From: a virus
Direction: 5' to 3' (one strand)
Length of the DNA: 36,610 bases
IMG/VR virus record: IMGVR_UViG_3300028372_000023
Location: 1 to 36,610 of that record
Numbering within the stretch: the first letter of the stretch is position 1; every line of letters begins with the position of its first letter. The notes below the pieces were generated by a model. That model did no database searches. It was not told the DNA's origin and saw nothing but the letters and a program-made list of their open reading frames with translations. Positions 3,886 through 34,103 of this stretch are shown one piece after another. The position numbers were made by a program, and so were the translations under genes.

Positions 3886-3978
3886 ATGACGGATGAGCAA
3901 TTGGCAAATTATTTGGAAAAGCTGAAAGCATCCAATGACAAAATCATTGCGGATATTCAAGCCCGCAATGTGCGTTGA
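3886..3978 (+). CDS. Possible 30-residue protein after the spanins
   Basis: Short frame starting at ATG 3886 (MTDEQLANYLEKLKASNDKI...), predicted to be a charged amphipathic helix. It lies in the same frame as the Rz1-like gene, separated by one TGA and about 19 further open codons, so it could be a separate micro-gene or a read-through extension. Its 3' end overlaps the end of the convergent DUF1064 gene by 35 bases. No ribosome-binding site is clear. Confidence 0.3.
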   Translation: MTDEQLANYLEKLKASNDKIIADIQARNVR

Positions 3979-4369
3979 CTTTCTTGTTTGCCCACACATC
4001 AATGCCGTGGCACGCTTTCATCAAGTTTGATTTAATGCGGAATACATCCGTGATGACACCTTTAAAATCCTCATGCACCACAATATCACGCTCACCAATC
4101 GTGTACCTGAAATCAAGTATATAATTACAGATATGGACACCATCCACATCAAATGAGAATGTGATTTGTCTTTCCAAATCCTTGATAATGCCAGCCCGTT
4201 GTTGGTTTTTCAACTCACACTCACGCCTGTATTCATTGGTTGAGTGATAGAAAACACCATCAACCGTGATTGTTTTGTTGTTGTATTTATTTTTCCGTGT
4301 CTTTTGTGGTTTTTCACTGGACAACAACTTTAGTACATCTTTGTCAATTATCATTCGTATAATTTCCAT
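3944..4369 (-). CDS. DUF1064 family protein, PD-(D/E)XK nuclease-like
   Basis: 141 residues matching the DUF1064 phage family: KNKYNNKTITVDGVFYHS, then a helix with E46 (NEYRRECELK), then D86 (YILDFRY), then the E100-D101-x-K103 core (VHEDFKG) and IKSNLMKACHGID. This pattern is that of a small PD-(D/E)XK nuclease, thought to act in phage recombination or resolution. It is the last gene of the minus-strand recombination block that starts with the exonuclease and RecT. The first ATG lacks a Shine-Dalgarno; the ATG at 4354 (MIIDKD) is an equally good start. Confidence 0.75.
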   Translation of the reverse strand: MEIIRMIIDKDVLKLLSSEKPQKTRKNKYNNKTITVDGVFYHSTNEYRRECELKNQQRAGIIKDLERQITFSFDVDGVHICNYILDFRYTIGERDIVVHEDFKGVITDVFRIKSNLMKACHGIDVWANKKVNAHCGLEYPQ

Positions 4370-4526
4370 TGGTGTTCATAGATGACGATATAAGAGCCAT
4401 ACACGGCATTTGCCTTAAATCATACATCATTACGGGTTTTTTATTTAATCGGGCTATTGTGCGCCCGCATTTGGGCAATGACACCTTATTGGATGGTGTG
4501 TTTTTGTTCGTATTGTAAAATTTCAC
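4344..4526 (-). CDS. Uncertain small reading frame between two early genes
   Basis: A 60-codon frame bridging the gap between the 4486 and 3944 genes. A better start is the TTG about six bases after an AAGG, giving a ~40-residue basic peptide (LPKCGRTIARLNKKP...). Its last third may be wrong-frame: another frame here encodes VYGSYIVIYEHQWKLYE and ends in a TGA overlapping the DUF1064 start as ATGA. Either a micro-gene or a frameshifted one is possible. Confidence 0.3.
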   Translation of the reverse strand: MKFYNTNKNTPSNKVSLPKCGRTIARLNKKPVMMYDLRQMPCMALISSSMNTNGNYTNDN

Positions 4527-4803
4527 TTTGGTTTACCTCATAAGATAGTTTGTTGAGGGCTTGCACAACAAGATATATGTCATTGCCTTTGCCGTTTATT
4601 GCATTGATAAGAGCCTCAATTTGCAAGGCGTGTGATTCTGTTTTGTTATTGGTGGTTTTCAACATATCGGATTGTGTTTTGATAGCATCAAGCACTGTAA
4701 GCATTGAGGTTTCAAGGGTGTGCAAACGCCATTCTTGAAAGGCAACCCATAGGGCAAGGGCAAGCCACAAGCCAACAATAACGGGGGGTAAAATTTCAAT
4801 CAT
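4486..4803 (-). CDS. Small membrane-anchored protein of unknown function
   Basis: 105 residues with one N-terminal transmembrane helix (about residues 5-23, LPPVIVGLWLALALWVAF) and a long helical, probably coiled-coil cytoplasmic part (LETSMLTVLDAIKTQ...). It overlaps the upstream gene by four bases (start within the stop region at 4800-4803), so it belongs to the recT operon. I recognise no family. The topology resembles small phage exclusion or holin-like proteins, but the early, recombination-gene context does not favour lysis. Confidence 0.6.
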   Translation of the reverse strand: MIEILPPVIVGLWLALALWVAFQEWRLHTLETSMLTVLDAIKTQSDMLKTTNNKTESHALQIEALINAINGKGNDIYLVVQALNKLSYEVNQSEILQYEQKHTIQ

Positions 4804-5252
4804 TTGCTCAAAATCTCATGGATTGAAATACTATCACCCATATATTCCTTGATGGCATTATTGACCACAACGGCATATTTTGCAACACGCACATCACCCT
4901 CAACAAATTTGATTCCGTAGTCGTTGATAAGCCAGTGCCCAACATCGTTTTGCCGTATAAATCCCCAATATCTCAACTTGGTAAAATCAGAGAATGAATT
5001 TGGCGCAGTGCCATCATTGATTTTTGATACCTGTATGCGGTAAATCAGTTTTAAAGCCCGTGCCATGCCCTTTGATATTGACCGCCTGTATGGCATATTG
5101 TGGATTGTGCCAGACAAGGGGCATTTGACGCATGTGCCCGCGCTCAAGTGTTGTTTAAATCGAAACCGTACACTTGAAAACAACTCATTGCCCCCAATGT
5201 TCACCTCAATTGGTGTGGTCATCTTTTTCCAAATTTCGTCATGTTTTGTCAT
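4800..5252 (-). CDS. Conserved phage protein of unknown function, early operon
   Basis: 150-residue soluble protein. An N-terminal segment carries a Cys-x2-Cys-Pro pair (TCVKCPLSG), which could be half of a zinc site. The middle and C-terminus read like a winged-helix fold (FTKLRYWGFIRQND...HWLINDYGIKFVEG...KYAVVVNNAIKEY). I recall similar hypothetical proteins in phages and plasmids but cannot name a family. It has a good Shine-Dalgarno (AAAGGA) and follows recT in the same minus-strand operon, so a role in recombination or early take-over is possible but unproven. Confidence 0.6.
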   Translation of the reverse strand: MTKHDEIWKKMTTPIEVNIGGNELFSSVRFRFKQHLSAGTCVKCPLSGTIHNMPYRRSISKGMARALKLIYRIQVSKINDGTAPNSFSDFTKLRYWGFIRQNDVGHWLINDYGIKFVEGDVRVAKYAVVVNNAIKEYMGDSISIHEILSK

Positions 5253-5288
5253 CGTTGTATCCTTTTAATAATAATTTTTGTGTGATGC

Positions 5289-6137
5289 CTATGATGATAC
5301 ACAAACCTCATCATCTTTGGGTTGCTCAACAACATCACCGTCAATGTCATCATCTGATTTTTCCGCAAGAGCCTTTTGTGTAAACTCATCTAGTTGTGCC
5401 GTTTCATCAATCTTTGGCTTGTCCGCATCCATATCGAAATTTTCTTTATTGTCGTACTCAACCAAGTCCTGAATGGCTGATATTTCCGCAAATGTGAGTT
5501 TGCACATACGCTTGATGACAGCAACTTTTGCCTTTTCAACAAACCATTTATCCCAAATAAATGTTTGCTTTGCACATCCCTTGATTTTGTTAATGTCATC
5601 CTTTGACATAGCAACAACACGTTGGAAATCTCGCCCCTCTTTTTTGTAATATAAAACACCCAAAACACCGTTTAAATCCTTTTCAGATGCAAAGGGGTTG
5701 CCACGCTTGTGTGTGTAGGTATCAAAACCATTTTCAGACGATATGTGCAAGTCATCACCCTCATATACAGGAAACGCATTGACATCAGACGATGGTATTG
5801 CCTCACGAATTTTTGCAATAAAACCACGGTATCCAATTTGCAGTGTTGCATTTGAGCCAAACTTGACGATGTGAGCGTGTTGCCTACCATCAATCTTGAT
5901 TTTAAACTTTGCCGAATCAATCATGCACTGGACAATTGAATCGGGCGTACAACGTGACAAATCTTTTTTGGGGTCACTTGTGCTTTTCTCAATTTCCATC
6001 AACACGCTTGCGCCATATTCCTGAATTGTTTTGAGGTGGGAATCATTGTTGATGTCCAAACTCAATGCCAAACCCAAACGCTTGAGCGTTTGCGGGGCGC
6101 GTAGTGTGTTGGCGATTATTTGTAAATTGTTGCTCAT
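5289..6137 (-). CDS. recT: RecT-family single-strand annealing protein
   Basis: 282 residues. The family core runs from about residue 55 to 225: a helical region (RCTPDSIVQCMIDSAKFKI), the characteristic GYRGFIAKIREA and VYEGDDL, then GVLGVLYYKKEGRDFQRVVAMS and WDKWFVEKAKVAVIKRMCK. The C-terminus is acidic and disordered. RecT anneals complementary single strands and works with a 5'-3' exonuclease, here the gene just upstream at 6209-7303. A Shine-Dalgarno (AAAAGGA) precedes the ATG. It has its own promoter with a palindromic operator at 6170-6198, so it can be expressed separately from the exonuclease. Confidence 0.93.
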   Translation of the reverse strand: MSNNLQIIANTLRAPQTLKRLGLALSLDINNDSHLKTIQEYGASVLMEIEKSTSDPKKDLSRCTPDSIVQCMIDSAKFKIKIDGRQHAHIVKFGSNATLQIGYRGFIAKIREAIPSSDVNAFPVYEGDDLHISSENGFDTYTHKRGNPFASEKDLNGVLGVLYYKKEGRDFQRVVAMSKDDINKIKGCAKQTFIWDKWFVEKAKVAVIKRMCKLTFAEISAIQDLVEYDNKENFDMDADKPKIDETAQLDEFTQKALAEKSDDDIDGDVVEQPKDDEVCVSS

Positions 6138-6169
6138 TTTAAGATGTCCTTTTCATTAAGTTATAAAGC

Positions 6170-6198
6170 ACAATAACGTAACATGTTACGCATTGCAA
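6170..6198 (-). promoter_or_regulatory. recT promoter with palindromic operator
   Basis: On the minus strand, -35 TTGCAA (6198-6193) and -10 TATTGT (6175-6170) are separated by exactly 17 bp. The spacer contains the perfect 14-bp palindrome CGTAACATGTTACG (6177-6190). A repressor bound there would block RNA polymerase. The same palindrome occurs at 14075-14088, and relatives at 7341 and 9024. Confidence 0.75.
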
Positions 6199-6208
6199 CC
6201 GTTTATTT

Positions 6209-7303
6209 TTAATATGCCCACGGTGGGTAGTCATCATCCGTCAACACTTGTGGTTGCTTGATTTCTGCCCACATTTCATCGCCATATCTATCTGTATAAA
6301 GTTTGTACTCATCAACACCATGACAAATCATTGATTGTGATGCCTCATACATGGCGTGATTTTTTGAAAAGATAACCTCATAAGCATTGGGGATTTCCTC
6401 TTTTTGTTGAAACACAAAATGGAATTGGTCACACGGACGCGAGGCAAACGCCTTGAGCCACGCATCATCACCCACAAAATCAAACACCTTACCATCTTTG
6501 GCAAATTGCTTTGCGTATGGCAGTGAGTCCATGTAGTGCGTTGCCTGTATGTTGTATCCATATTTTGTTATTTGGTCAGGCAAAAACCGCTCAATCTCTT
6601 TGTCCGTCATTCGCGTGAATGTTTTGAGATCATTGATTGCGGACACTTTGAGGTAGTCATAACGGCACTTACACCATTCTTTTAAGTCTTTATCAAACCA
6701 CACGCATGAAACCTCTGCGTATCCACCAATAAAAGCGGTTTTTAAATACGGGTGATTCTCAATCACCTTGGCGCATAATTCTGCACGGTCAATAACCCAG
6801 TCGGGTAGGAAAATTTTGCCCCCATGCGCATACTCATAATCATTTTTTAAAGCGTCAAAAACACGGTTTCCGTATTCAGGATTTAAACCCAAAAGATATG
6901 CAATACCCTCATCCTTGTTTTTGAATGTCACCTTAACATCGGGGTTTGCCTCTTTTTCTTTCCGCAATATTGCCTTAATGTCATCACCAGTTGTGATGAG
7001 GTCATCACGGTCACATGAAAACTCACGGGCATACTCATTATAAAATGCCTCTTTGCCCTCAAGGATGCGTTTGTGAAACGCCTTGCCAATCACCCGCGCC
7101 TCTGTACTCTTGTCCTCTTTGTCAGGATTCATCCATGAGTACCACCAGAATTTTGACGGGTTGGTTTTAAGCATTTTCAAGCCAGATGCGGACAGGCACG
7201 GAATTGCAAAATAATCCTCATCACTCATGTTGAAGTGCAAGCCCTCAACCGCTTTAAAATCGTAATTTTCCGCAATGGTTTTTGTTTTGGTGATTTCATT
7301 CAT
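6209..7303 (-). CDS. RecE/exonuclease VIII-like PD-(D/E)XK exonuclease
   Basis: 364-residue protein matching the C-terminal nuclease domain of RecE (DUF3799-type). The expected motifs are all visible: 'SxSxLK' entry region (LSASGLKML, 38-45), H77 in GKAFHK, E197 (YAEVSC), D216 (CRYDYL), D225-L-K227 (INDLKTF) and Q253-x3-Y257 (NIQATHY). It should degrade 5' strands of double-stranded ends, making the single strands that RecT anneals. It is the first gene of the minus-strand block and uses the divergent promoter at 7331-7362, with AAAAGGA before the ATG. Confidence 0.9.
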   Translation of the reverse strand: MNEITKTKTIAENYDFKAVEGLHFNMSDEDYFAIPCLSASGLKMLKTNPSKFWWYSWMNPDKEDKSTEARVIGKAFHKRILEGKEAFYNEYAREFSCDRDDLITTGDDIKAILRKEKEANPDVKVTFKNKDEGIAYLLGLNPEYGNRVFDALKNDYEYAHGGKIFLPDWVIDRAELCAKVIENHPYLKTAFIGGYAEVSCVWFDKDLKEWCKCRYDYLKVSAINDLKTFTRMTDKEIERFLPDQITKYGYNIQATHYMDSLPYAKQFAKDGKVFDFVGDDAWLKAFASRPCDQFHFVFQQKEEIPNAYEVIFSKNHAMYEASQSMICHGVDEYKLYTDRYGDEMWAEIKQPQVLTDDDYPPWAY

Positions 7304-7330
7304 AAGATATTCCTTTTGTTAAGTTATGTG

Positions 7331-7362
7331 TTGACAATATCGTAATGTTACGGCATTGTCAA
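7331..7362. promoter_or_regulatory. Symmetric divergent promoter and shared operator
   Basis: The segment is an inverted repeat: TTGACAAT (7331-7338) and ATTGTCAA (7355-7362) are perfect 8-bp arms. Each arm supplies a -35 box for one direction and the -10 for the other. Leftward: TTGACA, 17 bp, TATTGT, reading the exonuclease. Rightward: TTGACA, 17 bp, CATTGT (weaker), reading the HTH gene. The spacer holds CGTAATGTTACG (7341-7352), a shorter relative of the palindrome at the recT promoter. One bound protein would silence both directions. Confidence 0.75.
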
Positions 7363-7379
7363 TACAGAATAATTCATAA

Positions 7380-7682
7380 ATGACAGCACATAAGGGGCGT
7401 GGCGTGAGCAAAAAAAACTTAAAATATTTTACCAAATCAATTGCGGAAACACTGGATGACACACAAAAAAAAGTGATTGCGCAGTATGAGAGCGCATCCA
7501 AATTAAGAGCCGTGATGCGTTGGAAAGAGCGTATGACCCGTGCAAATCTTACGAGTCGGCAAATTGCACTGGATGTTGGCATTGCCCACACACGCATATC
7601 AGAGTACATCAATTTCAAAGTACAGCCCAAAGAGGAAAAGTATTTGGAAATTGAGTCCGCGATTTACAACCGTGGTGCTTAA
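7380..7682 (+). CDS. HTH transcriptional regulator (Cro/XRE-like), candidate early repressor
   Basis: 100-residue basic protein with a helix-turn-helix at residues 58-79 (TSRQIALDVGIAHTRISEYI). No second domain follows, so it is Cro-sized rather than CI-sized. It is encoded next to the divergent promoter at 7331-7362, which contains an operator-like palindrome within its own promoter, so autorepression and control of the exonuclease, recT, the 9082 operon and the 14132 operon are the natural hypothesis. The leader is short (about 20 bases after the -10) and has no strong Shine-Dalgarno, so translation may be weak. Confidence 0.8.
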   Translation: MTAHKGRGVSKKNLKYFTKSIAETLDDTQKKVIAQYESASKLRAVMRWKERMTRANLTSRQIALDVGIAHTRISEYINFKVQPKEEKYLEIESAIYNRGA

Positions 7683-7697
7683 TGTTTAAATAGTCAT

Positions 7698-7762
7698 TGA
7701 GGGGCTTATTTTTGATTTAGCGGTCAAAGAAACAGCCTTTTATCCGTTCGGGTTGCCCCTCA
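7698..7762 (+). other. Possible structured RNA or terminator between regulator and replication gene
   Basis: The 117-base gap after the HTH gene holds a perfect 8-bp inverted repeat, TGAGGGGC (7698-7705) and GCCCCTCA (7755-7762), enclosing 49 bases with a smaller TTTGA/TCAAA stem. No U-run follows the closing arm, so a simple intrinsic terminator is unlikely. It could be a structured leader of the 7800 gene. Confidence 0.35.
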
Positions 7763-7799
7763 CTTATCTTAATGAATGGAATTAGAACGGATGCAATAA

Positions 7800-8615
7800 A
7801 TGCACATACATACAATACAATTGAACATTGAGACGCTTGATGGCGGTACTCAAGGAATGGATGCCACGGAGTTTGGAGCATACATGCGCCTCTTGGTGTG
7901 TTGCTATAAAGCAGACAATCAAATCAGTACTTGTGATAAAAGACTTGCACGGATGGTGGGTGTATCCCCCCGTGTTTGGAAAAATATAAAAGATGTTGTG
8001 TTGAGCAAATTTGAGCAAATTGACGGTTATTGGTCTCACGAGCGAGTCAGAAAAGAGCTTGTTAAGTATCAAACATTGTCGCAGAAAAATAAAGCTAACG
8101 CATTGAAAAAGAACAAAACACCAAAGCCAGTGGGTAAGCCAAAAACAGAAAATGGCACAGCGAATACAAATAACCATCACCAAGTAACAACATCTATTAC
8201 TAACGTAATAGAGTCCCCACCCTCAAATTTCCTCATGCCAGATGGTAGCTTTTTATCATTCAAGCAATTGGGTGAGTACCTTTGGGGTTTGTACCCATCA
8301 GTGGGAAGACGCAAGGGCCACAAAACAAAATTCATTGAACAAATCAAACGCCATTTAAAGAAAGGGGCAGACCATGAAACAATTATCAAAGGCATTACCG
8401 CGTACGGGGAATATTGCAGAAACCAAGGCGAGTTTAACAAAGATGCAGAGCGGTGGGCAAGAGACGCAGAATGGGATAATGATTATTCAAGCGGTCAAAC
8501 CCCTCATAAATCACACGCAGGGGCTGGGAATGGCAAAAGAGACGAGTCAATCCATTCGCTCATTGGTGATGCAGAACAAGCCAAAAAAATGCTTGGGGGC
8601 GTTTCGGAGGATTGA
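7800..8615 (+). CDS. DUF1376-type replication initiator-like protein
   Basis: 271 residues. The N-terminal ~100 residues match the DUF1376 (YdaU-like) winged-helix domain: a short strand, DGGTQGMDATEFGAYMRLL, an HTH-like stretch ending in RLARMVGVSPRVWKNIKDVV, then IDGYWSHERVRKEL. A Lys- and Asn-rich linker follows, then a second domain (FEQLGEYL-like region through GITAYGEYCRN...WARDAEW) like the C-termini of phage replication organisers. Such proteins usually sit at phage origins and recruit helicase or helicase loader. The Shine-Dalgarno is weak. The 3' end overlaps the next gene. Confidence 0.75.
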   Translation: MHIHTIQLNIETLDGGTQGMDATEFGAYMRLLVCCYKADNQISTCDKRLARMVGVSPRVWKNIKDVVLSKFEQIDGYWSHERVRKELVKYQTLSQKNKANALKKNKTPKPVGKPKTENGTANTNNHHQVTTSITNVIESPPSNFLMPDGSFLSFKQLGEYLWGLYPSVGRRKGHKTKFIEQIKRHLKKGADHETIIKGITAYGEYCRNQGEFNKDAERWARDAEWDNDYSSGQTPHKSHAGAGNGKRDESIHSLIGDAEQAKKMLGGVSED

Positions 8616-9006
8616 GACACCAAACAGCGAGTATCCAGACCGCACAGATGTTGAATACATGAGAGCCTACAGTCATGAAGTGCCAGAGGTGTGTGATGAC
8701 ACCAGAAAAAGAATTGACCACGCTCAAAAGCCCTTAAAACGCGAATTTATAATTGATATGCTTGCCCGATACGTTGCGGTGCATAAACGCATGAACGTTG
8801 AAAACGATAAACGCCAAATACTATTTGCGGATTATGCAAACATTTTGAGCGGATTGCCAGAATATGCCCTCATGCTTGCGGTGGTTGATTTGTTGGAAAA
8901 AGATAAAGATGTTTGGTTTCCACCGTGCGCAAAGATTAAAGAAATGGCAGAGGCTTATGCGATTGAATATCCTAAAATCCTTGATGGTGAGGAAAAAATG
9001 AAATAA
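8530..9006 (+). CDS. Conserved replication-module protein, possible helicase loader
   Basis: 158 residues from the ATG at 8530, which follows AGGGG at good spacing; the frame is open upstream to 8374, but that part overlaps the initiator gene and looks like a shadow. The C-terminal half is helical (REFIIDMLARYVAVHKRMNV...FADYANILSGLPEYALMLAVVDLLEKDKDVWFPPCAKIKEMA) and resembles proteins found after DUF1376 genes in other phages. The position beside the initiator suggests it loads or regulates a helicase; no ATPase motif is present, so it would be an adaptor. The overlap of 86 bases suggests coupling. Confidence 0.6.
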   Translation: MAKETSQSIRSLVMQNKPKKCLGAFRRIETPNSEYPDRTDVEYMRAYSHEVPEVCDDTRKRIDHAQKPLKREFIIDMLARYVAVHKRMNVENDKRQILFADYANILSGLPEYALMLAVVDLLEKDKDVWFPPCAKIKEMAEAYAIEYPKILDGEEKMK

Positions 9007-9011
9007 AACCA

Positions 9012-9046
9012 TTGACACAGTCACGTAATATATTACGGTGTATTTA
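9012..9046 (+). promoter_or_regulatory. Operator palindrome and partial promoter before the 9082 operon
   Basis: A consensus -35 TTGACA (9012-9017) is followed by the perfect 14-bp palindrome CGTAATATATTACG (9024-9037). Candidate -10s after it (around 9039-9046) are 21-23 bp from the -35, so the exact promoter is unclear. The operator is a variant of that at 6177 and 14075, differing in the central bases. Confidence 0.6.
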
Positions 9047-9081
9047 CTAACTTAATAAATCTTAATTCAAGGAATATCTTA

Positions 9082-9609
9082 ATGACGCAAAAACACACCC
9101 CCGCCCCTTGGTTTTTTGGTAAAGATAGGTTTGACCCTGTTTTTTACACAGGCAGAAAAGTGCCATTACCAAGCACAAAGGCAAATTTAAGTCTTTTAAT
9201 TTCATCACCTGAATTGCTTGAGGCTTTGAAAGCATCAAAGGCGGTATTGACATCCATACTTGGTGACACGTACGAGCATAAAATAATAAAAGAGCAAGTC
9301 AAAATTATTGAAACCGCCATTGCCAAGGCAGAGGGAAATTTGTTTTGGACGTATGAGTTGGACGGTGAAATTTATGACGCTGATTTTGACAGCGCGGATA
9401 AGGCGCAAGAGTGTGCGGATGAGAAATTTGCAGAGGAGTGCCAAGAGGAAAGCCCGCGCAATGGTGAAGAGTTTGAGCGGTGTGATTTTGCCCTTATTGA
9501 ATATTCCTATGATGATGACGGTGAGCGCGTAATACACAGCCGTGATGACACCGCCATGCTTGCGTATGAGCATTATCATGGTGATTTAAAAGAACACGGA
9601 TACCCATAG
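9082..9609 (+). CDS. Phage protein with 'HTPxPW' N-terminal domain, function unknown
   Basis: 175 residues. The first ~90 residues follow a pattern common in phages: HTPAPWFFG at the start, then NLSLLISSPELLEALKASKAVL, then ETAIAKAEG. This small domain is widespread but has no known function. Here it is joined to an acidic, Cys-containing C-terminal part (YDADFDSADKAQECADEKFAEECQEE...) that I do not recognise. It is first in an operon preceded by the palindromic operator at 9024, with Shine-Dalgarno AAGGA upstream, so it is expressed early. Confidence 0.75.
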   Translation: MTQKHTPAPWFFGKDRFDPVFYTGRKVPLPSTKANLSLLISSPELLEALKASKAVLTSILGDTYEHKIIKEQVKIIETAIAKAEGNLFWTYELDGEIYDADFDSADKAQECADEKFAEECQEESPRNGEEFERCDFALIEYSYDDDGERVIHSRDDTAMLAYEHYHGDLKEHGYP

Positions 9610-9622
9610 GAACTACGGAAAA

Positions 9623-10006
9623 ATGGAAACATATATTTTTACAGTATTGGTCAATGAGGTCGAGTTGCCAGTTGAGTGCAGTGTTGATGATAACGGGCAA
9701 CCGCAATACCTCAAAAGCCCTCAAAGTGATGACAATACCCTCTTTGATAATTTCAAAGACCTTACCATCCCAATCAGGCGTAAAGACAAATCAGGTTTTG
9801 ACAGAGAACATGACGCAAGGATGTGCGCCTCAAGGGTAAACTATAATGGAAACGCTGATTTTCGCATTGAGTTTTCAGATATTTATGTGAGTTTGCATGA
9901 CCTATGCCGTGCATGTGGTTTTATCACATTGCAATATGAAAACAACGTGCCAATTTCTTACAAAAATGATGAGGTGATTGCTTATGCCATATCAAACTAC
10001 ATTTAA
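9623..10006 (+). CDS. Hypothetical early protein
   Basis: 127-residue soluble protein, mostly beta-like with many aromatic and acidic residues (METYIFTVLVNEVELPVECSV...). It has two Cys in DLCRACG near the C-terminus. I recognise no family. It follows the 9082 gene after 13 bases and overlaps a tiny lipoprotein gene by 23 bases at its end, so it belongs to the same operon. Confidence 0.6.
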   Translation: METYIFTVLVNEVELPVECSVDDNGQPQYLKSPQSDDNTLFDNFKDLTIPIRRKDKSGFDREHDARMCASRVNYNGNADFRIEFSDIYVSLHDLCRACGFITLQYENNVPISYKNDEVIAYAISNYI

Positions 10007-10121
10007 AATTTTAACATTGTGCATTTTTTGCACATTGCTATCCGCTTGCAATGACAAAGCCATGAGTGTTTGCCAAGAAAAACACAGTTTTGACACATGC
10101 TTTTATACTTTAAACCGATAA
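9984..10121 (+). CDS. Tiny phage lipoprotein
   Basis: 45-residue protein: basic/polar start, hydrophobic signal (FKILTLCIFCTLLSAC) with a good lipobox LSAC, Cys at residue 22, and a mature part of only 24 residues with two further Cys (VCQEKHSFDTCF) that could form a disulphide. It should be exported and lipidated. Small early lipoproteins in phages sometimes block superinfection at the cell surface, but that role is inference. The gene overlaps the previous gene in another frame, showing the compact coding of this block. Confidence 0.65.
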   Translation: MPYQTTFKILTLCIFCTLLSACNDKAMSVCQEKHSFDTCFYTLNR

Positions 10122-10150
10122 ATTAACTTAACGAATAGGACAAATTAACA

Positions 10151-11323
10151 ATGATTATTTTTCAAAACAACGGTGAGATTGACATCAACGCCATTAAAAC
10201 ATTTGGTGTTTCGGTAAAAAAAGAGGGGTCAATTGGTTTCTTTGGCACTGGATTAAAATACGCAATTGCAGTTTTATTGCGTGAGGGCGGTGAAATCACA
10301 ATTTATTCAGGCGAAAACAAACTTGAATTTGGCATTGAATCCCTTGAGGTCACGGGTGAGTCGTTTGATTTCATCACAATGAATGGTGAGAGGCTTGGTT
10401 TCACAACTGAATTGGGCAAAATGTGGCGACCTTGGATGGCTTTTCGTGAAATATATTGCAATTGTACGGATGAGGGTGGTGAGATATTTGAGAGTTTGGG
10501 TCATCCAAAGGCGATACCAAACAAAACACTTGTGGTTTGTAAGGGGAAAGCGATTGAGGAAATTTATAGAGATATAAACCTGTATATTTTGCAGACATTG
10601 CCAATGGTATCAAATGAATACGTTGAGTTGCGTGATAAATCCACACGCCATGTGTTTTACAAAGGTGTGATGGTCAAAGATGATATGCCTCAATCCCTTT
10701 ATACTTACAATATTATGCGTCACATTGACTTGACAGAGGACAGGACAGCCAAATATCAATTTGAAGTCATCCGTGAAATCAACAACGGTATTGTGAAACT
10801 TGATGATGTCACAGTCATACGCAGAATTGTGTGTGCCCCTGAACATACGCTTGAACACCAATTGGATTATGACATCCATGTGACACCATCGGATGAATTT
10901 TTGGAAGTGTGCAAGCAATTAGCGGAAACCAAAGATCGCACGGCAAACAATAAGGCGATAAAGTATGCGCTCAAATACATTGATGCCAATACAGAGCCAC
11001 AGGTAATTGAACTCACACCGCTTGAGCAAGGGATGTATGAAAAATCCGTTGAGTTGTTGGGGATAGCGGGATACAACGTCATGGAATTTCCCGTCAAGTT
11101 TGTTGAGACATTGGGCACGGGTGTTTTTGCACAAGCCAAGGATGGCATCATGTGGGTTGCCAAGTCGTGTTTTGAGCAAGGGACAAAGACGGTTGCCCAC
11201 GCATTGCTTGAGGAACATTTTCACTTAAAACACGGATACCGTGATTGTGAGCGTGATTTCCAAACATTCTTATTCAAAAACGTGCTCACATTGGTTGAGC
11301 GATTAAATCAGGAGGCTTTTTAA
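10151..11323 (+). CDS. GHKL-type ATPase-like phage protein
   Basis: 390 residues. The N-terminus (DINAIKTFGVSVK...SIGFFGTGLKYAIAVLLREGGEITIYSG) matches the ATP-lid and G-x-G region of Bergerat-fold (GHKL) ATPases, as in a family common in phage early regions and usually just called 'ATP-binding protein'. The usual Asn of the N-box is not clear, so ATP hydrolysis is doubtful. The C-terminus contains AHALLEEHFHLKHGYRDCERDFQ, a His/Glu-rich helix reminiscent of a metallopeptidase active site but without a standard HExxH. The role is unknown; it may manipulate host proteins or DNA early in infection. Confidence 0.65.
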   Translation: MIIFQNNGEIDINAIKTFGVSVKKEGSIGFFGTGLKYAIAVLLREGGEITIYSGENKLEFGIESLEVTGESFDFITMNGERLGFTTELGKMWRPWMAFREIYCNCTDEGGEIFESLGHPKAIPNKTLVVCKGKAIEEIYRDINLYILQTLPMVSNEYVELRDKSTRHVFYKGVMVKDDMPQSLYTYNIMRHIDLTEDRTAKYQFEVIREINNGIVKLDDVTVIRRIVCAPEHTLEHQLDYDIHVTPSDEFLEVCKQLAETKDRTANNKAIKYALKYIDANTEPQVIELTPLEQGMYEKSVELLGIAGYNVMEFPVKFVETLGTGVFAQAKDGIMWVAKSCFEQGTKTVAHALLEEHFHLKHGYRDCERDFQTFLFKNVLTLVERLNQEAF

Positions 11324-11324
11324 T

Positions 11325-11426
11325 ATGAAAAAGAAAAAATCAATCAAGCCCGTATTTGAGGCGGTGCGTATCAATGTTGGTGGGCATGTTTGGCGCGCAC
11401 ACTGGATTGATGCAGAAAAACCTTGA
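11325..11426 (+). CDS. 33-residue basic protein
   Basis: Starts two bases after the previous stop, with AGGAG (11310-11314) as Shine-Dalgarno inside the end of the GHKL-like gene. The product begins MKKKKSIKPVFEAVRINVGG and ends DAEKP. The good ribosome site and codon use like the phage backbone argue that it is real. Function unknown. It is the last backbone-type gene before the foreign-looking island. Confidence 0.5.
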   Translation: MKKKKSIKPVFEAVRINVGGHVWRAHWIDAEKP

Positions 11427-11472
11427 AAAAATGAGCGAATAATAATTAATTAGGAATTGTACGTTTTAGGGC

Positions 11473-11501
11473 TTGAAAACCTGCTTTTATTATACTAAAT
11501 T
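11473..11501 (+). promoter_or_regulatory. Candidate promoter of the cargo island
   Basis: TTGAAA (11473-11478) and TAAATT (11496-11501) are 17 bp apart in an AT-rich segment upstream of the 11554 gene; TATACT (11491-11496) is a better -10 but too close to that -35. No phage-type operator palindrome is present. Confidence 0.35.
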
Positions 11502-11553
11502 AGAGATATAAGGTGACGGATTGGCCGACACCCACTAACGAAAGGTTAACAAA

Positions 11554-11853
11554 ATGAGAAATTTTACACAAAAGCAAGCCTACGTATTATGCGCTACTCT
11601 TTACGGCAAGCCAGCCGATGATGACGGGCGTTTTACAAGCACCCATGTTGATACGGGTGAAGTACAACACGCCGAAGGTTACACTAAAATGGCTCAAGAT
11701 GCGGACTATCCAAAAATTTACGACACGTTTTTAAGCCATTATCACGGAGTCTATAAAACGACGAAGGCTCGCAAGAAGTTTGTAGATAGAGAGATGGAGA
11801 GAGCCCTTTATATCGGCGCTTGTAACGGGTTGTGCGAATTTACACAAATGTAA
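11554..11853 (+). CDS. Hypothetical protein of the cargo island
   Basis: 99-residue soluble protein (MRNFTQKQAYVLCATLYGKP...) with many Lys, Tyr and Asp; not recognised. It is preceded by GAAAGG about ten bases upstream of the ATG. Its last eight codons (reading GLCEFTQM) lie within the first copy of the 25-bp direct repeat, so an identical 3' end recurs after the next gene. Composition matches the neighbouring island genes rather than the phage backbone. Confidence 0.6.
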   Translation: MRNFTQKQAYVLCATLYGKPADDDGRFTSTHVDTGEVQHAEGYTKMAQDADYPKIYDTFLSHYHGVYKTTKARKKFVDREMERALYIGACNGLCEFTQM

Positions 11854-11855
11854 GG
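11831..11855 (+). repeat. 25-bp direct repeat, copy 1
   Basis: Begins TGTGCGAATTTACACAAATG and includes the 11554 gene's stop and the start of the next gene's ribosome site. It is identical over 25 bases to 12568-12592. Its first 16 bases form a dyad (TGTG, 8-base gap, CACA). The copies bracket exactly one gene. Confidence 0.85.
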
Positions 11856-11867
11856 AGGGTACTTAAA

Positions 11868-12560
11868 ATGAACAAACTAAAAGCATACCATAATGACAAG
11901 TCTATCAAGGACAAATATGTTAAACGAGTTACATGGCATTTTGAACAAGACAACATCATTCGCGATATCGGCTGGAACGGTTGTAAAGGCTGTGCCATTG
12001 GCTGTACTCTGGAGAAGTATGACCACTCGCAATACCCCATTGAACTTGGGATACCTGAATGGCTTGCCAGAGTTGAGGACACGCTTTTCGAGGGCATGAG
12101 CAAGGATAAATCCAGAACGTGGCCTATTGATTTTCTGGCGGCCGTTAATATCGGTTCGGACCTTGAAGCAATCAAAGCCCCGTTCCTGCTCTTTGTTCTT
12201 AAAGACACTCTGGAAACTTTCGAATCCGTGGAATACCCAGATGTTAAGAAAGCGGTGGAGGTGACAATAGCCCTATGGGAGCGAGACGACATTGGCTCTG
12301 CTGATTGGCAAGAGGCAGCAAAGGCAGCATGGGCAGCAGCATGGGAATCATGGGCAGCAGCAGAGTCAGCAGCAGAGGCAGCAGCATGGGCAGCAGCAGA
12401 GGCAGCAGCAAAGGCAGCAGCATGGGCAGCATGGGCAGCAGCAGAGGCAGCAGCAGAGGCAGCAGCATGGGCAGCAGGGGAATCATGGGCAGCAGCAAAG
12501 GCAGCAGCATATGACCGATATGCCGATGAAATTTTGAGTTTGATTAAGGAGTGTAGATAG
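11868..12560 (+). CDS. Protein with Cys-rich N-terminal domain and Ala/Trp-rich repeat tail
   Basis: 230 residues from the ATG at 11868, which follows a strong AAGGAGG. Residues 1-~125 form a globular part with CKGCAIGC near residue 40, IELGIPEWLARVEDTLFEG and PIDFLAAVNIG. I recall this arrangement from a widespread family of unknown function in bacteria and phages that also ends in Ala-rich tails. From about residue 140 to 218 the protein is a low-complexity helix built from AAAEAAAWAAA-like units. The gene lies between two 25-bp direct repeats, like an inserted cassette. Function unknown. Confidence 0.8.
   Translation: MNKLKAYHNDKSIKDKYVKRVTWHFEQDNIIRDIGWNGCKGCAIGCTLEKYDHSQYPIELGIPEWLARVEDTLFEGMSKDKSRTWPIDFLAAVNIGSDLEAIKAPFLLFVLKDTLETFESVEYPDVKKAVEVTIALWERDDIGSADWQEAAKAAWAAAWESWAAAESAAEAAAWAAAEAAAKAAAWAAWAAAEAAAEAAAWAAGESWAAAKAAAYDRYADEILSLIKECR
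12309..12510 (+). repeat. Low-complexity GCAGCA-rich tract
   Basis: About 200 bases of imperfect repeats built on GCAGCA, with units GCAGCAGAGGCA and GCAGCATGGGCA. It encodes the Ala/Trp-rich tail of the 11868 product. Lack of stop triplets in this motif opens long spurious frames in all directions. Such tracts change length readily by slippage or unequal exchange. Confidence 0.85.
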
Positions 12561-12567
12561 CCACATA

Positions 12568-12592
12568 TGTGCGAATTTACACAAATGTAAGG
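12568..12592 (+). repeat. 25-bp direct repeat, copy 2
   Basis: Identical to 11831-11855; here it is intergenic, between the Ala-rich gene and the transposase fragment, and supplies the latter's AAGG. It is entered through the perfect palindrome CACATATGTG (12562-12571), which is absent at copy 1. Confidence 0.85.
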
Positions 12593-12603
12593 GTAAAGTG
12601 AAA

Positions 12604-13008
12604 ATGAAAAGCATCGCTGAAGTTTACAGGCGCTGGCCATCCCACGCGGACTGCATCGCACACTTAGAGCAAGTCCGGTGGGGTGGTTCCCCAGAATGTC
12701 CTTATTGTAACAAAAGTGACAAGATCAGCCCTCATACTGAAAGAGGGAGGCAATCGCGGTGGCAGTGCAGCCTTTGCCAAAAGTCCTTCACCGTGACGGT
12801 GGGAACGCTATTCCACAACAGCCACGTCGATCTTCAACGCTGGTTTCTTCTTATATCGCTGATGTCCGAAATAAAAGGGCTTTCCGCCACGAAAGCCGCA
12901 CTTCACCTTGAAATGCGCCGACCTACCGTAGGGTCGATGATGCGCCGCATCCGAGCCAGCCCTAGAAAGGCAGATTTGATTTATTTATTGCCCATTAGGG
13001 GATTATAG
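12604..13008 (+). pseudogene. Truncated IS1595-family transposase
   Basis: 134 codons covering only the N-terminal part of an IS1595/ISXO2-type transposase. The zinc ribbon has C32-x2-C35 (ECPYCNK) and C55-x2-C58 (QCSLCQKSF), followed by TVTVGTLFHNSHVDLQRWF and the helical LSATKAALHLEMRRPTVGSMMRRIR. Full-length members have roughly 300 residues; the DDE catalytic domain is missing. The match ends near residue 123 and the last ten codons look unrelated, so the phage backbone probably resumes near 12975. It cannot transpose by itself. A GTG at 12598 is an alternative start. Confidence 0.85.
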
Positions 13009-13075
13009 TTGCTGAATTGGGATGTGCTTTTAGGGTGGATGATTTTCAATAAGCCACAACCGCCAAAATTGGGAG

Positions 13076-13342
13076 ATGAGCAAAATGTTTAGAACGGATG
13101 CACAACAAGAGATAGTTGATAAATTTTATAAGCCAGACGTTGATGCGATGTGGCTTGAGAGAGAGATAATGCAAGATGCCAGAAACAGACACAACCAATT
13201 CAAAAACGAATCCAGACACGGTGATGAGCACAGATGTTCGTTGCCCCAATTGCCAAGGCGAGGGATTCGATTACAGCAAGAAACCATTGATGGAGTCGGA
13301 CACGCCACAATGCTTGATGTGCATGGGAACGGGGATGATTGA
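13076..13342 (+). CDS. Possible small protein overlapping the zinc-ribbon gene
   Basis: Frame starting MSKMFRTDAQQEIVDKFYKP. The first ~45 residues look protein-like; the rest overlaps the 13176 gene and reads like a wrong-frame translation of it. The ATG at 13085 is better spaced from GGGAG (13071-13075). Either a short true gene has lost its stop, or the frame is spurious. Unrecognised. Confidence 0.35.
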   Translation: MSKMFRTDAQQEIVDKFYKPDVDAMWLEREIMQDARNRHNQFKNESRHGDEHRCSLPQLPRRGIRLQQETIDGVGHATMLDVHGNGDD

Positions 13343-13349
13343 AAAATGA
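13176..13349 (+). CDS. Small DnaJ-like zinc-ribbon protein
   Basis: 57 residues with two paired knuckles: CPNCQGEG at 23-30 and CLMCMGTG at 46-53. This CxxCxGxG pair is the DnaJ cysteine-rich zinc-binding motif; small phage proteins with this pair are common before or among nucleic-acid enzymes. It probably binds one zinc ion and mediates protein contacts. Its stop overlaps the start of the exonuclease gene (ATGA at 13346-13349), showing translational coupling. ATG at 13224 is an alternative start. Confidence 0.65.
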   Translation: MPETDTTNSKTNPDTVMSTDVRCPNCQGEGFDYSKKPLMESDTPQCLMCMGTGMIEK

Positions 13350-14038
13350 AATACACATTAAGACTTATTGATTTTGAAACCACGGGCATACCAACTGATG
13401 AGGTGAGCCATAGCGTTATTGAAAGCGCATTGATTGACGTGTGTGCCGATGAGAAAGCAATAAAATCATCCTCAACCACCTTGGTTGCACCAACAACACA
13501 AATGGATATTGAGGCGCAAGCGGTTCACCATATCAGTGAAATGCAAGCCACAAGAGAAGGGCGCATTTGGGATGAGGTTCAATCAACACTATCATCACAC
13601 AATGATGATGAAACCATCATATACGTGGCACACAAAGCCGATTATGAGAAACAGTTTTTTAACCCGCCTCAATCAATATGGATTGACACATACAAGGTTG
13701 CGTTGGTTTTATATCCCGATGCCCCGCGCCATACAAATCAAGTGTTGAAATATTACCTTGAGATTGAGGACGCGCCACACCATCACCCACCACACCGCGC
13801 ATTGCCTGATTGTCATGTCACGGTTGAGGTGCTGATAAAGATGGCAGAAAAAATGACGTTCAATGAAATGATACAGATTTCAAAGCAACCGCCATACCTT
13901 ACAAAAATTGCATTTGGTAAGCATAGGGGCACAAAGTTTGAGGATTTGCCGTACGATTATTGCCAGTGGGTTATGAAACAGGACTTTGATGAGGGCGTGA
14001 AAGCGGGCGCACAAAGGCGCATTGAGATTGGTTTATAA
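13346..14038 (+). CDS. ExoX-like DEDDh 3'-5' exonuclease
   Basis: 230 residues. The DEDDh motifs are D9 and E11 (DFETTG), D99 (AHKADYEKQF), H150 and D155 (HRALPDCHVT). A C-terminal DUF3820-like module (FGKHRGTKFEDLPYDYCQWV, residues 190-209) matches the tail of exodeoxyribonuclease X-type proteins. It should remove nucleotides from 3' ends, useful in proofreading, recombination or host DNA breakdown. It is coupled to the zinc-ribbon gene upstream and precedes the operator-controlled gapR operon. Confidence 0.88.
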   Translation: MKYTLRLIDFETTGIPTDEVSHSVIESALIDVCADEKAIKSSSTTLVAPTTQMDIEAQAVHHISEMQATREGRIWDEVQSTLSSHNDDETIIYVAHKADYEKQFFNPPQSIWIDTYKVALVLYPDAPRHTNQVLKYYLEIEDAPHHHPPHRALPDCHVTVEVLIKMAEKMTFNEMIQISKQPPYLTKIAFGKHRGTKFEDLPYDYCQWVMKQDFDEGVKAGAQRRIEIGL

Positions 14039-14066
14039 AAATTAAATTTAATGGTTGACTTGATTG

Positions 14067-14095
14067 TTTAAAAGCGTAACATGTTACGCAATACT
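14067..14095 (+). promoter_or_regulatory. Operator-containing promoter before the GapR-like gene
   Basis: The palindrome CGTAACATGTTACG (14075-14088) is identical to that at the recT promoter. With the same spacing as there, the -35 would be TTTAAA (14067-14072, weak) and the -10 AATACT (14090-14095), 17 bp apart. AACTTAA follows at 14109-14115, as in other leaders of this phage. Confidence 0.65.
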
Positions 14096-14131
14096 TAACT
14101 AAACGGATAACTTAAAGGAACGGAAAATGCT

Positions 14132-14437
14132 ATGAGCGATATTAAAGAAAATACAGATGATGCGGGCATTGGTCACAATAGTGGTGATGATGCCAGTGAT
14201 GTTGGTGGCGTGGCAGGAAAACGCCTTGAGTCATTCTTTCAACGTATTGAGAGGCTTGATGAGGAAAAGAGCGCGATTGCAGAGGACATCAAAGAGATTT
14301 ATGCAGAGGCAAAAGGTGTAGGATTTGATGCCAAAACCATGCGTAAAATCATGCGGTTGCGGAAAATGGATATTGAAAAACGCAGAGAAGAGGATGAAAT
14401 CCTTGATTTGTATAAATCCGCAATAGGTATGGAGTAG
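14132..14437 (+). CDS. GapR-family (DUF2312) DNA-binding protein
   Basis: 101 residues. A polar N-terminus with GIGHNSGDD is followed by the GapR/DUF2312 domain (residues ~30-100): KRLESFFQRIERLDEEKSAI, EDIKEIYAEAKGVGFDAKTM, then RLRKMDIEKRREEDEILDLY. In Caulobacter GapR is an essential nucleoid-associated protein that clamps overtwisted AT-rich DNA ahead of replication and transcription and stimulates topoisomerases. A phage copy may support phage replication or compete with host GapR. The domain is typical of alphaproteobacteria and is the best host clue in the window. It has a good Shine-Dalgarno (AAAGGAA) and its own operator-controlled promoter. Confidence 0.9.
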   Translation: MSDIKENTDDAGIGHNSGDDASDVGGVAGKRLESFFQRIERLDEEKSAIAEDIKEIYAEAKGVGFDAKTMRKIMRLRKMDIEKRREEDEILDLYKSAIGME

Positions 14438-14549
14438 CACTATGGGGTTGCGATTGCGTACGTGACGCATGACGAACTTGACAGCGTTTAACTACATTGG
14501 GTGAAAACCCCAACGCCCCACCCTTTAATTAAAACGGAAAGACGGAAAA

Positions 14550-14951
14550 ATGAATATTGAAAAAAAAGAGATACCCTCAAGCATGGATACATTGGTTGGC
14601 GGTGAAATACTCACAAGGGCATGTCACGGACGCGCACACAACAATGGATGGTGGCATGACCTCAAAACAGGTGAGCAAGTCAAACGCCCTATCCCTGAAT
14701 GTCTCATGCTGATTGTCACAGAGGTGGCAGAGGCTATGGAGGGACACCGCAAAGACCTTATGGATGACCATTTGACCGATAGAAAAATGCTTGAGGTTGA
14801 GTTGGCAGATGCGGTCATTCGTATATTTGATTTGGCAGGTGGGTATGACCTTGATGTTGCGGGCGCAATCGTTGAAAAAATGACCTATAACGATAACCGC
14901 GCAGACCATAAGATTGAAAACCGCGCTAAAGACGGGGGCAAAAAGATTTAA
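14550..14951 (+). CDS. MazG-like nucleotide pyrophosphohydrolase
   Basis: 133 residues of the all-alpha NTP-PPase fold. Metal-binding residues fit the pattern ExxE...ExxD: E58 and E61 (TEVAEAMEG), E84 and D87 (EVELADAVIRIFDLAG). The C-terminal helix MTYNDNRADH is typical of phage members. These enzymes cleave (d)NTPs, or ppGpp-like alarmones in some phages, and are thought to adjust nucleotide pools or delay the stringent response. It follows the GapR-like gene in the same operon after a 112-base gap with only small hairpins. Confidence 0.85.
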   Translation: MNIEKKEIPSSMDTLVGGEILTRACHGRAHNNGWWHDLKTGEQVKRPIPECLMLIVTEVAEAMEGHRKDLMDDHLTDRKMLEVELADAVIRIFDLAGGYDLDVAGAIVEKMTYNDNRADHKIENRAKDGGKKI

Positions 14952-14952
14952 T

Positions 14953-15336
14953 ATGGTCAATAAACTCAAAATCATAGGCGCATGCATGGTGGCATTGACG
15001 TTTTTTGCAATCATGTCATCAAGTGATGAGCCAAAGGCAACCAAACCTGAAATGACCGTCAATGAGATACGGCAAAGCATCACACGCTCATTGTGCCGTG
15101 AGACGGCCATGAGTGGCTTGAAAGTGCGTGAGGGCGCAACCATATCCCTTTCACGCAATCACCCAAAGCAGATGGATGACAGGGGCGTGGTGTGGTCGTA
15201 CGTTGACACGGTACGTGCTCAAAACTCATTTGGTGTCATGCTTGAGGATTTGTTTGTGTGCCGTGTATCGTTTGCCTTTGGTGAGGGATTGGTCACAGAC
15301 CTCAAGGTTGGTCACAATGTTGTGGTGGGCGAGTGA
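14953..15336 (+). CDS. Exported or membrane-anchored hypothetical protein
   Basis: 127 residues from ATG 14953, one base after the MazG stop; the frame is open further upstream but overlaps MazG. An N-terminal signal or anchor (KIIGACMVALTFFAIMSS, about residues 5-22) precedes a soluble domain containing three Cys in total with the N-terminal one, including SLCRETAM and FVCRVSF, which could pair. No family recognised. The stop overlaps the next start (TGATG). An exported protein expressed with nucleotide-metabolism genes is unexpected. Confidence 0.65.
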   Translation: MVNKLKIIGACMVALTFFAIMSSSDEPKATKPEMTVNEIRQSITRSLCRETAMSGLKVREGATISLSRNHPKQMDDRGVVWSYVDTVRAQNSFGVMLEDLFVCRVSFAFGEGLVTDLKVGHNVVVGE

Positions 15337-16145
15337 TGCAAAGATTTGCACACATTTCAGGTGGTCGGACATCAATGTTTATGGCACTGGACTTAAAACA
15401 AAAATATCCTGATATTGTTTTTTTATTTCAAAACACAGGCGCAGAGCGTCATGAGACGTATGAGTATTTAAATAGGTGTGACAAGGCATTTAATCTCAAT
15501 ATCGTGTGGCTTGAATACACAAAAGAATTGCCATTATTTAAGGTGGTGAGTTATGAAACAGCATCACGAAACAATGAGCCGTTTGACCAATTGATTGAAA
15601 AGCGCAAGAACTATTTGCCAAATCAGAGCCAAAGATTTTGCACAATGGAAATGAAAGTATTGACCGGCCGTAGGTATATACGCTCATTAGGATTAAAAGA
15701 ATGGACATCATACGTTGGGTTTAGATATGATGAGCCACACCGCAAAAGGGTTGATGCAAGGCGCACGAAAACAATCACAGAGCACATGTGTTATCCATTG
15801 TTTGATGATAAGGTGACGGTGCGTGATATTGGTGCGTTTTGGCGTTCACACAACATGCAACCCCTTGATTTAAAATTGCCTATGTTACCAAATGGCAAAA
15901 CAATTGGCGGAAATTGCGTTGGGTGTTTCATGAAATCAGAGTATGAGCAATCAATGTTGTGTAAACATGAGCCTGAAAAGGTTAAATGGTTGATGGATAA
16001 AGAGGAGCAGTGCGGTGGTACATTCAAAAAAGATGTATCATGGAAAGAGCGCAGTGATTTTGTAGGTAGGCAAGGCGATTTATCAGATGACATGGAAAGC
16101 GAATTGTATTGCCAAAGTGATTATGGTGGATGTACGGAGTTTTGA
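15336..16145 (+). CDS. PAPS-reductase-like / PP-loop ATPase family protein
   Basis: 269 residues. The N-terminal SGGRTSMFMA (8-17) is the PP-loop of the adenosine phosphosulfate reductase-like superfamily, which adenylates a substrate. NTGAERHETYEYLNR and FCTMEMKV follow, as in phage homologues often named phosphoadenosine phosphosulfate reductase. Cys residues at 102, 194, 197 and 209 (NCVGCFMK) could bind an Fe-S cluster, as in DndC and related sulfur-transfer enzymes. The substrate is unknown; nucleic-acid thiolation and sulfur assimilation are both possible. It is the last gene before a pair of terminator-like hairpins, ending the early/middle operon. Confidence 0.75.
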   Translation: MQRFAHISGGRTSMFMALDLKQKYPDIVFLFQNTGAERHETYEYLNRCDKAFNLNIVWLEYTKELPLFKVVSYETASRNNEPFDQLIEKRKNYLPNQSQRFCTMEMKVLTGRRYIRSLGLKEWTSYVGFRYDEPHRKRVDARRTKTITEHMCYPLFDDKVTVRDIGAFWRSHNMQPLDLKLPMLPNGKTIGGNCVGCFMKSEYEQSMLCKHEPEKVKWLMDKEEQCGGTFKKDVSWKERSDFVGRQGDLSDDMESELYCQSDYGGCTEF

Positions 16146-16157
16146 TTGATGAGTTTG

Positions 16158-16174
16158 ACCGCGTAGCGGTTTTG
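16158..16174 (+). terminator. Weak hairpin after the PAPS-reductase-like gene
   Basis: ACCGC (16158-16162), GTA loop, GCGGT (16166-16170), then TTTTG. A 5-bp GC-rich stem with a short U-run, 12 bases after the stop; partial terminator at best, backed up by the stronger one at 16229. Confidence 0.4.
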
Positions 16175-16228
16175 TGAGATTATTGTTTCATAATAAAAAT
16201 ACGACATGATGACTCCTTTCATAAACTA

Positions 16229-16264
16229 CCCCTTGAGGCTTAATTGCTTTGAGGGGTTTTTCTT
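16229..16264 (+). terminator. Rho-independent terminator separating early and late operons
   Basis: CCCCT (16229-16233) pairs with AGGGG (16252-16256), extended by one wobble pair, followed by TTTTTCTTT. It resembles the layout of the T7 late terminator. It lies directly upstream of the late promoter and should insulate the terminase operon from early transcription. Confidence 0.7.
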
Positions 16265-16293
16265 TGATTATATAGCAAAGCTAGTGGTATGCT
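16264..16293 (+). promoter_or_regulatory. Late-operon promoter (extended -10)
   Basis: TTGATT (16264-16269), 18-bp spacer, TATGCT (16288-16293), with TG one base before the -10 (TGGTATGCT), an extended -10 arrangement. It drives the terminase and virion genes. Unlike the early promoters it contains no CGTAA...TTACG operator, so late timing must come from another mechanism. Confidence 0.6.
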
Positions 16294-16333
16294 TTACCTT
16301 AACGGATATATTGAACGGTGAGAGGATAAACAC

Positions 16334-22070: not shown

Positions 22071-22109
22071 TCAAGAGATTGATTAAAACTTAAAAAGGAA
22101 AATAAAAAA

Positions 22110-34102: not shown

Positions 34103-34103
34103 C

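Follow-up and report, generated by a model that had tools for sequence, protein, structure and literature searches.

A recurrent operator-like palindrome at four promoter regions of an uncultured myovirus and its candidate repressor

The virus record IMGVR_UViG_3300028372_000023 of IMG/VR (36,610 bp, analyzed over its whole length and referred to below as the window) carries a contractile-tailed phage gene set, and four of its promoter regions contain the same kind of short palindrome. This motif is real, non-random, and operator-like. The four sites, designated S1 (6177-6190), S2 (7341-7352), S3 (9024-9037), and S4 (14075-14088), were confirmed in the sequence exactly where a preliminary description had placed them. 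We consider it reasonably probable that they define a repressor regulon in which an XRE-like helix-turn-helix (HTH) protein encoded at 7380/7404-7682 would act as an autoregulated dimeric repressor, with binding, repression, the identity of the regulator, and early timing all standing as predictions. Control of early phage genes through a common repressor site is of a well-known kind and belongs to normal phage biology; what the window provides is a concrete regulatory map, comprising four promoter regions, one motif, and one candidate repressor, for a myovirus that has not been cultured and whose early module is an orphan.

Results

Sequence, placement, and statistics of the palindromic sites

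S1 and S4 are perfect palindromes of identical sequence, and S3 differs from them by a paired change (C...G to T...A) on both arms; the symmetry is thereby kept, as expected if a dimer reads both half-sites. S2 has TG at its center and therefore is not a perfect palindrome, and the gap between its half-sites is 2 bp versus 4 bp in the 14-bp sites. Judged by its letters, S2 is a variant of the 14-bp site and not an identical site. The earlier proposal of one operator common to four control regions thus held insofar as a non-random palindrome is present in all four, but the half-site spacing at 7341-7352 departs from the others by 2 bp.

Perfect palindromes as such occurred at the expected frequency: 12 of at least 12 bp were found in the window, compared with 12.4 in simulation, and 4 of at least 14 bp, compared with 3.3 expected. 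The unusual feature was that three of the four palindromes of at least 14 bp belonged to one family, CGTAAYATRTTACG; three such palindromes with common outer five bases were obtained in none of 300 simulated windows. Under an order-3 Markov model, the window was expected to contain 0.03 copies of CGTAA-N4-TTACG and 0.01 copies of CGTAA-N2-TTACG. When up to two mismatches to CGTAATATATTACG were allowed, as the preliminary description had proposed, the whole-window search gave three sites against 0.09 expected, and none of 100 shuffles reached three. A search with up to three mismatches to CGTAACATGTTACG returned just the three 14-bp sites in 36.6 kb; this result is weak by itself, with 1.58 sites expected by chance and 19 of 100 shuffles reaching three matches. 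All four sites are intergenic, and intergenic DNA constitutes 6.7% of the window; the multiplicity of copies within coding sequence that had been named as grounds for abandoning the operator idea was not found. The sole near-copy outside the region with the same half-site spacing, CGTAGTTTTTTACG at 24241, has one mismatch in the half-sites.

Promoter anatomy and a repeated cassette

Promoters were compared by alignment on the -35 box, and the promoters and transcription starts given here are predictions. In the recT, exonuclease (exo)/HTH, orf9082, and gapR-mazG promoters, the palindrome sits between the -35 box and the predicted start, at a distance from the -35 box of 2 nt for recT, 4 nt for both exo and HTH, 6 nt for orf9082, and 14 nt for gapR. 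At 6170-6198 and 7331-7362 it lies inside a 17-bp spacer, as originally described, and the predicted late promoter near 16155 was correctly reported to lack it. S3 and S4 are not cleanly inside a 17-bp spacer; their -10 boxes are weak, and there is overlap between the palindrome and the -10/start region. Predicted starts fall at about 6163, 7327, 7366, 9047-9053, and 14090-14102. Since the palindromes are loop-less and, at S1 and S2, lie fully upstream of the predicted start, they fit a DNA operator and not an RNA hairpin.

A second shared element, AACTTAA or ACTTAAC, was located 36 to 38 nt downstream of the first base of the -35 box, near the predicted transcription start, in the recT, exo, orf9082, and gapR promoters and also in the palindrome-free promoter of orf10151. 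With a loose definition, nine -35/leader pairs were found against 0.94 expected. These leaders (6156-6162, 7319-7325, 9049-9055, 10125-10131, and 14093-14115) adjoin and run on into related Shine-Dalgarno stretches, including AAGGAATATCTTA at exo and orf9082, and the leader common to the five early units is possibly an initial-transcript or translation element. A loose -35/AACTTAA match without the palindrome was also seen at 22053-22093, before the major head protein gene (22110).

Global alignment against shuffles gave z values of 7.6 for the recT/exo pair and 5.5 for the exo/orf9082 pair, with moderate values for most other pairs. By this measure, the recT and exo promoters are clear paralogues, and the promoters look like diverged copies of one cassette consisting of a TTGACA-like -35 box, the palindrome, and the AACTTAA leader. 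Aligned with recT, the exo promoter has an operator 2 bp shorter and, upstream, two additional single bases, so that the 17-bp spacer is kept. The occurrence of the orf10151 promoter without the palindrome indicates that basic promoter function can be uncoupled from the palindrome.

An interlocked face-to-face promoter at S2

Promoter sequences can be read in both directions across the S2 region, TTGACAATATCGTAATGTTACGGCATTGTCAA, with TTGACA-17-TATTGT for exo and TTGACA-17-CATTGT for HTH arranged about one common site. Each -35 box overlaps the opposite -10 box (TATTGT/CATTGT), with about 20 bp between the two -10 boxes and about 39 bp between the predicted starts. Because the -35 and -10 boxes are interlocked, two polymerases should be unable to bind together. 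S2 is a natural variant site with altered spacing, and its interlocked promoter offers a compact case in which to ask how polymerase exclusion would combine with repressor binding; the interlocked promoter, and an operator with changed half-site spacing that yet retains the 17-bp promoter spacer, may merit the attention of specialists.

The proposed regulon and its candidate regulator

A repressor regulon would be recognized by an operator recurring at several promoters of the phage above chance and by its placement in core promoters. Both were found: three 14-bp sites and one 12-bp variant are present, with an exact 17-bp spacer at S1 and S2 and a -10/start overlap at S3 and S4 of the predicted promoters. 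We propose that the palindromes would serve as operators for one phage-encoded dimeric repressor, each located between the -35 box and the start of a promoter of the sigma-70 type, where a bound dimer would deny access to RNA polymerase. The units under control would be recT and its downstream genes, the exonuclease gene, the HTH gene with the replication genes, orf9082 with the genes behind it, and gapR-mazG. The HTH protein would repress its own promoter and, on accumulating, would shut down the recombination and replication genes in a Cro-like negative feedback. At S2, where one polymerase would act at a time, a single dimer could silence both directions, and the shortened site would still be used by the regulator.

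The HTH protein was taken as the candidate repressor on the grounds that its gene adjoins S2 and that the operator is a symmetric 14-bp site. Its putative XRE fold is assigned by weak profile matches: HTH_3 (0.0036), like HTH_19, is below the Pfam cutoff, and phrog_1373 is a broad phage regulator family that also matches all 14 control genomes. Translation may start at GTG 7404, which is preceded by a Shine-Dalgarno-like AAGGGG, rather than at ATG 7380. Searches of PDB and NCBIfam with the candidate regulators gave nothing firm.

Several points weigh against the HTH protein as the common repressor. S2, the site closest to the HTH gene, is the odd one, being 2 bp shorter and imperfect, and a rigid dimer should not have equal affinity for 12- and 14-bp versions. 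No homologues of the HTH protein in which gene and site might be compared were found in phages, plasmids, or IMG/VR. Furthermore, a single-sequence structure model of the protein was unusable (predicted local distance difference test [pLDDT] score, 48.6) and too poor for a fold search, and the same sites would also be explained by a regulator of the host or by a different phage protein. A more elaborate scheme, to which we assign little probability, is that one regulator reads the 14- and 12-bp spacings to tune the early promoters, with S2 as a one-polymerase-at-a-time selector between exo and the regulator/replication genes, or that control of the early regulon is exerted through an operator of the HicB antitoxin type, which would link the early genes to toxin-antitoxin status.

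Alternative explanations

A host transcription factor might bind the sites, so that host state would time early phage expression and the phage HTH protein would have another role. Such a reading draws on the occurrence of CGTAACATGTTACG or a one-base variant, with TTGACA directly before it, at unrelated promoters (two hicAB modules and one 89-amino-acid open reading frame [ORF] in another phage contig), as well as on the imperfection of the site nearest the HTH gene. The scan of about 85,000 species genomes, however, returned 5 places, none of them like a conserved host regulon, and we consider a host factor unlikely. Another phage protein, such as the small protein encoded at 4800-5252, the orf9082 product, or the zinc-ribbon/HTH remnant at 12598-13008, is quite unlikely to be the regulator. 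Several early proteins have no assigned function, which leaves room for such a candidate, but none has a supported DNA-binding domain except a transposase-like fragment and GapR, and it is the HTH gene that holds the classical place beside its putative operator. GapR is a general DNA-binding protein and not likely a sequence-specific repressor.

The repeats could also be relics of duplicated promoter-leader cassettes that spread in the genome, the palindrome having no regulatory role. The promoters and leaders are indeed visibly related beyond the palindrome, as the alignment scores above show, but they have diverged outside the -35 box, palindrome, and leader, the palindrome offset varies, the fifth cassette promoter (orf10151) is without the palindrome, and the paired changes in S3 keep the symmetry on both arms, which drift would rarely do; we regard a purely vestigial origin as highly unlikely. 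It is very improbable that the sites serve activation or, alternatively, replication, partition, or GapR loading: the weak -10 boxes at S3 and S4 resemble those of activated promoters, but the boxes at S1 and S2 are near consensus with 17-bp spacing, and the site fills the spacer, a position from which bound proteins normally obstruct polymerase. In addition, the sites are single and at promoters and are not clustered like iterons. Chance palindromes, for which the three-mismatch search alone leaves room, are contradicted by the exact-motif tests, the common outer bases, and the intergenic placement, and their probability is negligible. The repressor regulon thus remains the reading that we prefer.

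The motif in relatives and in other genomes

The preliminary description had suggested that the motif be sought upstream of the same genes in related phages. Distant relatives were found to be without it, and the collections searched yielded no record with a closely related early module. No relatives of the HTH, RecT, or DUF1376 proteins were found in IMG/VR; the motif was absent from 45 terminase-relative records and from MazG relatives, none of which carries a matching early module, and from all 11 loci (26 to 38% identical) identified by an exo-profile scan. MazG apart, homologues of the early module were at most 38% identical and lacked the motif. As no searched relative shares the early module, the absence of the motif there does not speak for or against its conservation. 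One contig (L004) is 100% identical over 13,251 bp but covers only 14968 onwards, beyond all four sites.

Viral contigs were scanned for TTGACA followed by the palindrome within 14 nt, and three places were found, all with zero gap. Two of the three lie directly upstream of hicA-hicB (contigs L085 and L086, identified by profile matches), where CGTAACATGTTACG or CGTAATATGTTACG fills the promoter spacer ahead of hicA; in L085, an additional but less perfect copy lies 30 bp farther upstream. A scan of the approximately 85,000 species genomes for TTGACA-N0-14-CGTAACATGTTACG gave 5 places in REP-like or chance contexts, and the Bacteroidota and cyanobacterial matches were rejected as a host regulon for the reason that they look like REP-type repeats or chance. 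Apart from the hicAB modules, the motif-plus-promoter scans yielded mainly chance or coding matches. The same 14-mer or its one-base variant in two unrelated hicAB promoters makes this a plausible operator class that is not specific to this phage, and it is probable that unrelated elements use sequences of this class as operators.

Other occurrences were noted. TTGACACGTAACATGTTACGT is present at L084:10982-11001, in an unrelated phage contig, before an 89-amino-acid ORF without a Pfam match. In another viral contig (L176:5060-5200), a 100-amino-acid ORF, again with no Pfam match, has a promoter region densely occupied by the exact palindrome together with several CGTAAC/GTTACG half-sites. The possibility that the palindrome CGTGACATGTCACG or its core, present twice in each of two loci with MazG, is a co-evolved operator was rejected; the copies are in unrelated contexts, and one of them belongs to a stretch that is repeated across several loci and is not promoter-like.

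The early module and other features of the window

The window encodes portal, head protease, major head, sheath, tape measure, and baseplate proteins on the plus strand, and also a terminase and an amidase. The module at 3.9 to 16.1 kb consists of a minus-strand arm (Holliday-junction resolvase-like, recT, and exonuclease VIII-like genes) and a plus-strand arm (HTH protein, DUF1376 primosome-like, orf9082, orf10151, exonuclease-domain protein, GapR, MazG, and PAPS reductase-like genes), and this gene content suggests early functions. Neither an integrase nor a CI-type repressor was recognized among the window proteins scanned, from a record that may be incomplete. The principal features are listed in Table 1.

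Table 1. Coordinates of sites, promoters, leaders, and genes in the window
Feature	Coordinates	Strand	Basis
S1, perfect palindrome CGTAACATGTTACG, within recT promoter spacer	6177..6190	.	Sequence
S2, shortened imperfect palindrome CGTAATGTTACG, half-sites 2 bp apart	7341..7352	.	Sequence
S3, perfect palindrome CGTAATATATTACG	9024..9037	.	Sequence
S4, perfect palindrome CGTAACATGTTACG; 16 bp including flanks, GCGTAACATGTTACGC	14075..14088	.	Sequence
Predicted face-to-face bidirectional promoter, S2 region; TTGACA on both strands, 17-bp spacers	7331..7362	.	Sequence; minus-strand member also in promoter listing
Predicted recT operon promoter; -35 TTGCAA (6198-6193), 17-bp spacer, -10 TATTGT (6175-6170)	6170..6198	-	Sequence, promoter alignment
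Leader AACTTAA at predicted recT transcription start	6156..6162	-	Sequence
Leader AACTTAA of exonuclease transcript	7319..7325	-	Sequence
Predicted orf9082 operon promoter; TTGACA (9012-9017), weak -10 candidates, palindrome 6 nt past -35	9012..9046	+	Promoter alignment
Predicted gapR-mazG operon promoter; TTGACT (14055-14060), 16-bp spacer, -10-like TAACAT (14077-14082) within palindrome, ACTTAAC leader 14093	14055..14099	+	Alignment
Predicted fifth cassette promoter, orf10151; TTGACA and AACTTAA leader, palindrome absent (internal contrast)	10090..10131	+	Alignment
recT, single-stranded DNA annealing protein	5289..6137	-	PF03837 E 1.9e-21
Exonuclease VIII-like (DUF3799 PDDEXK)	6209..7303	-	phrog_412 E 5.7e-40; PF12684
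HTH protein, XRE-like, candidate regulator	7380..7682	+	phrog_1373 E 1.3e-5; Pfam HTH_19 E 0.0015, below cutoff
orf9082, first gene of operon behind S3, function not assigned	9082..9609	+	phrog_1273
GapR-like DNA-binding protein	14132..14437	+	PF10073 E 5.2e-30
MazG-like pyrophosphatase	14550..14951	+	phrog_5658 E 5e-64

No Rfam matches or tRNA features were found in the window. The window ends contain diverged copies (1-523 versus 33957-34479, 77% identical, and 1432-1933 versus 36111-36610, 90% identical) of the start of a tail-fibre gene and of the membrane-protein-like gene behind it, which points to duplication of a tail-fibre cassette or to variants merged in assembly. Two identical 25-nt direct repeats (11831-11855 and 12568-12592; a third, weaker copy is at 11555) border an ORF that contains alanine/tryptophan-rich repeats and are followed by a truncated zinc-ribbon protein of the IS1595 type; the GC content at 12000-13000 is 0.49 to 0.54, compared with about 0.42 around it, as for a recent insertion.

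Comparison with known systems

In lambdoid Cro/CI and XRE repressor circuits, core promoters contain short palindromes, a small HTH gene lies nearby at a divergent promoter, and repression is simply steric; the arrangement predicted here is alike in these respects. The 434 operators are 14 bp long. Unlike the lambdoid circuits, in which operators are tripled at one switch, the window has single sites over four promoter regions across 8 kb, with no recognized CI gene or integrase and a role for the HTH protein that is predicted.

HicB antitoxins repress their own promoters via palindromes or inverted repeats overlapping promoter boxes (PMC11594946). The probable hicAB operators of L085 and L086 have the same class of palindrome within a promoter spacer, whereas the offset of the palindrome from the -35 box differs from that in the phage early promoters, and the phage early sites are not adjoined by hicA or hicB. 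No HicA or HicB match was obtained among the 20 proteins of 3944-18221 scanned with Pfam, the other window proteins having been scanned with PHROGs only. As neither protein was recognized in the early module, the likeness is treated as convergence, which is likely, with a small chance of a functional link.

Published bidirectional promoters share one -10 box, with starts usually 10, 18, or 23 bp apart (PMC12825309). S2, judged from its sequence alone, resembles this Grainger class in that pseudo-symmetric DNA would drive divergent transcription and the polymerases would exclude each other; in contrast to that class, whose divergent starts flank or lie within one shared -10 box, S2 has two separate -10 boxes, each interlocked with the opposite -35 box, and falls outside it. 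Mycobacteriophage L5-type operators/stoperators are 13-bp, asymmetric, monomer-bound sites that number more than 20 per genome and are also proposed to stop elongation (PMC9283540). One repressor is proposed for several genome-wide sites in both cases; unlike the many L5-type sites, which also lie between genes away from promoters, the four sites of this phage are roughly symmetric and are located only at promoters.

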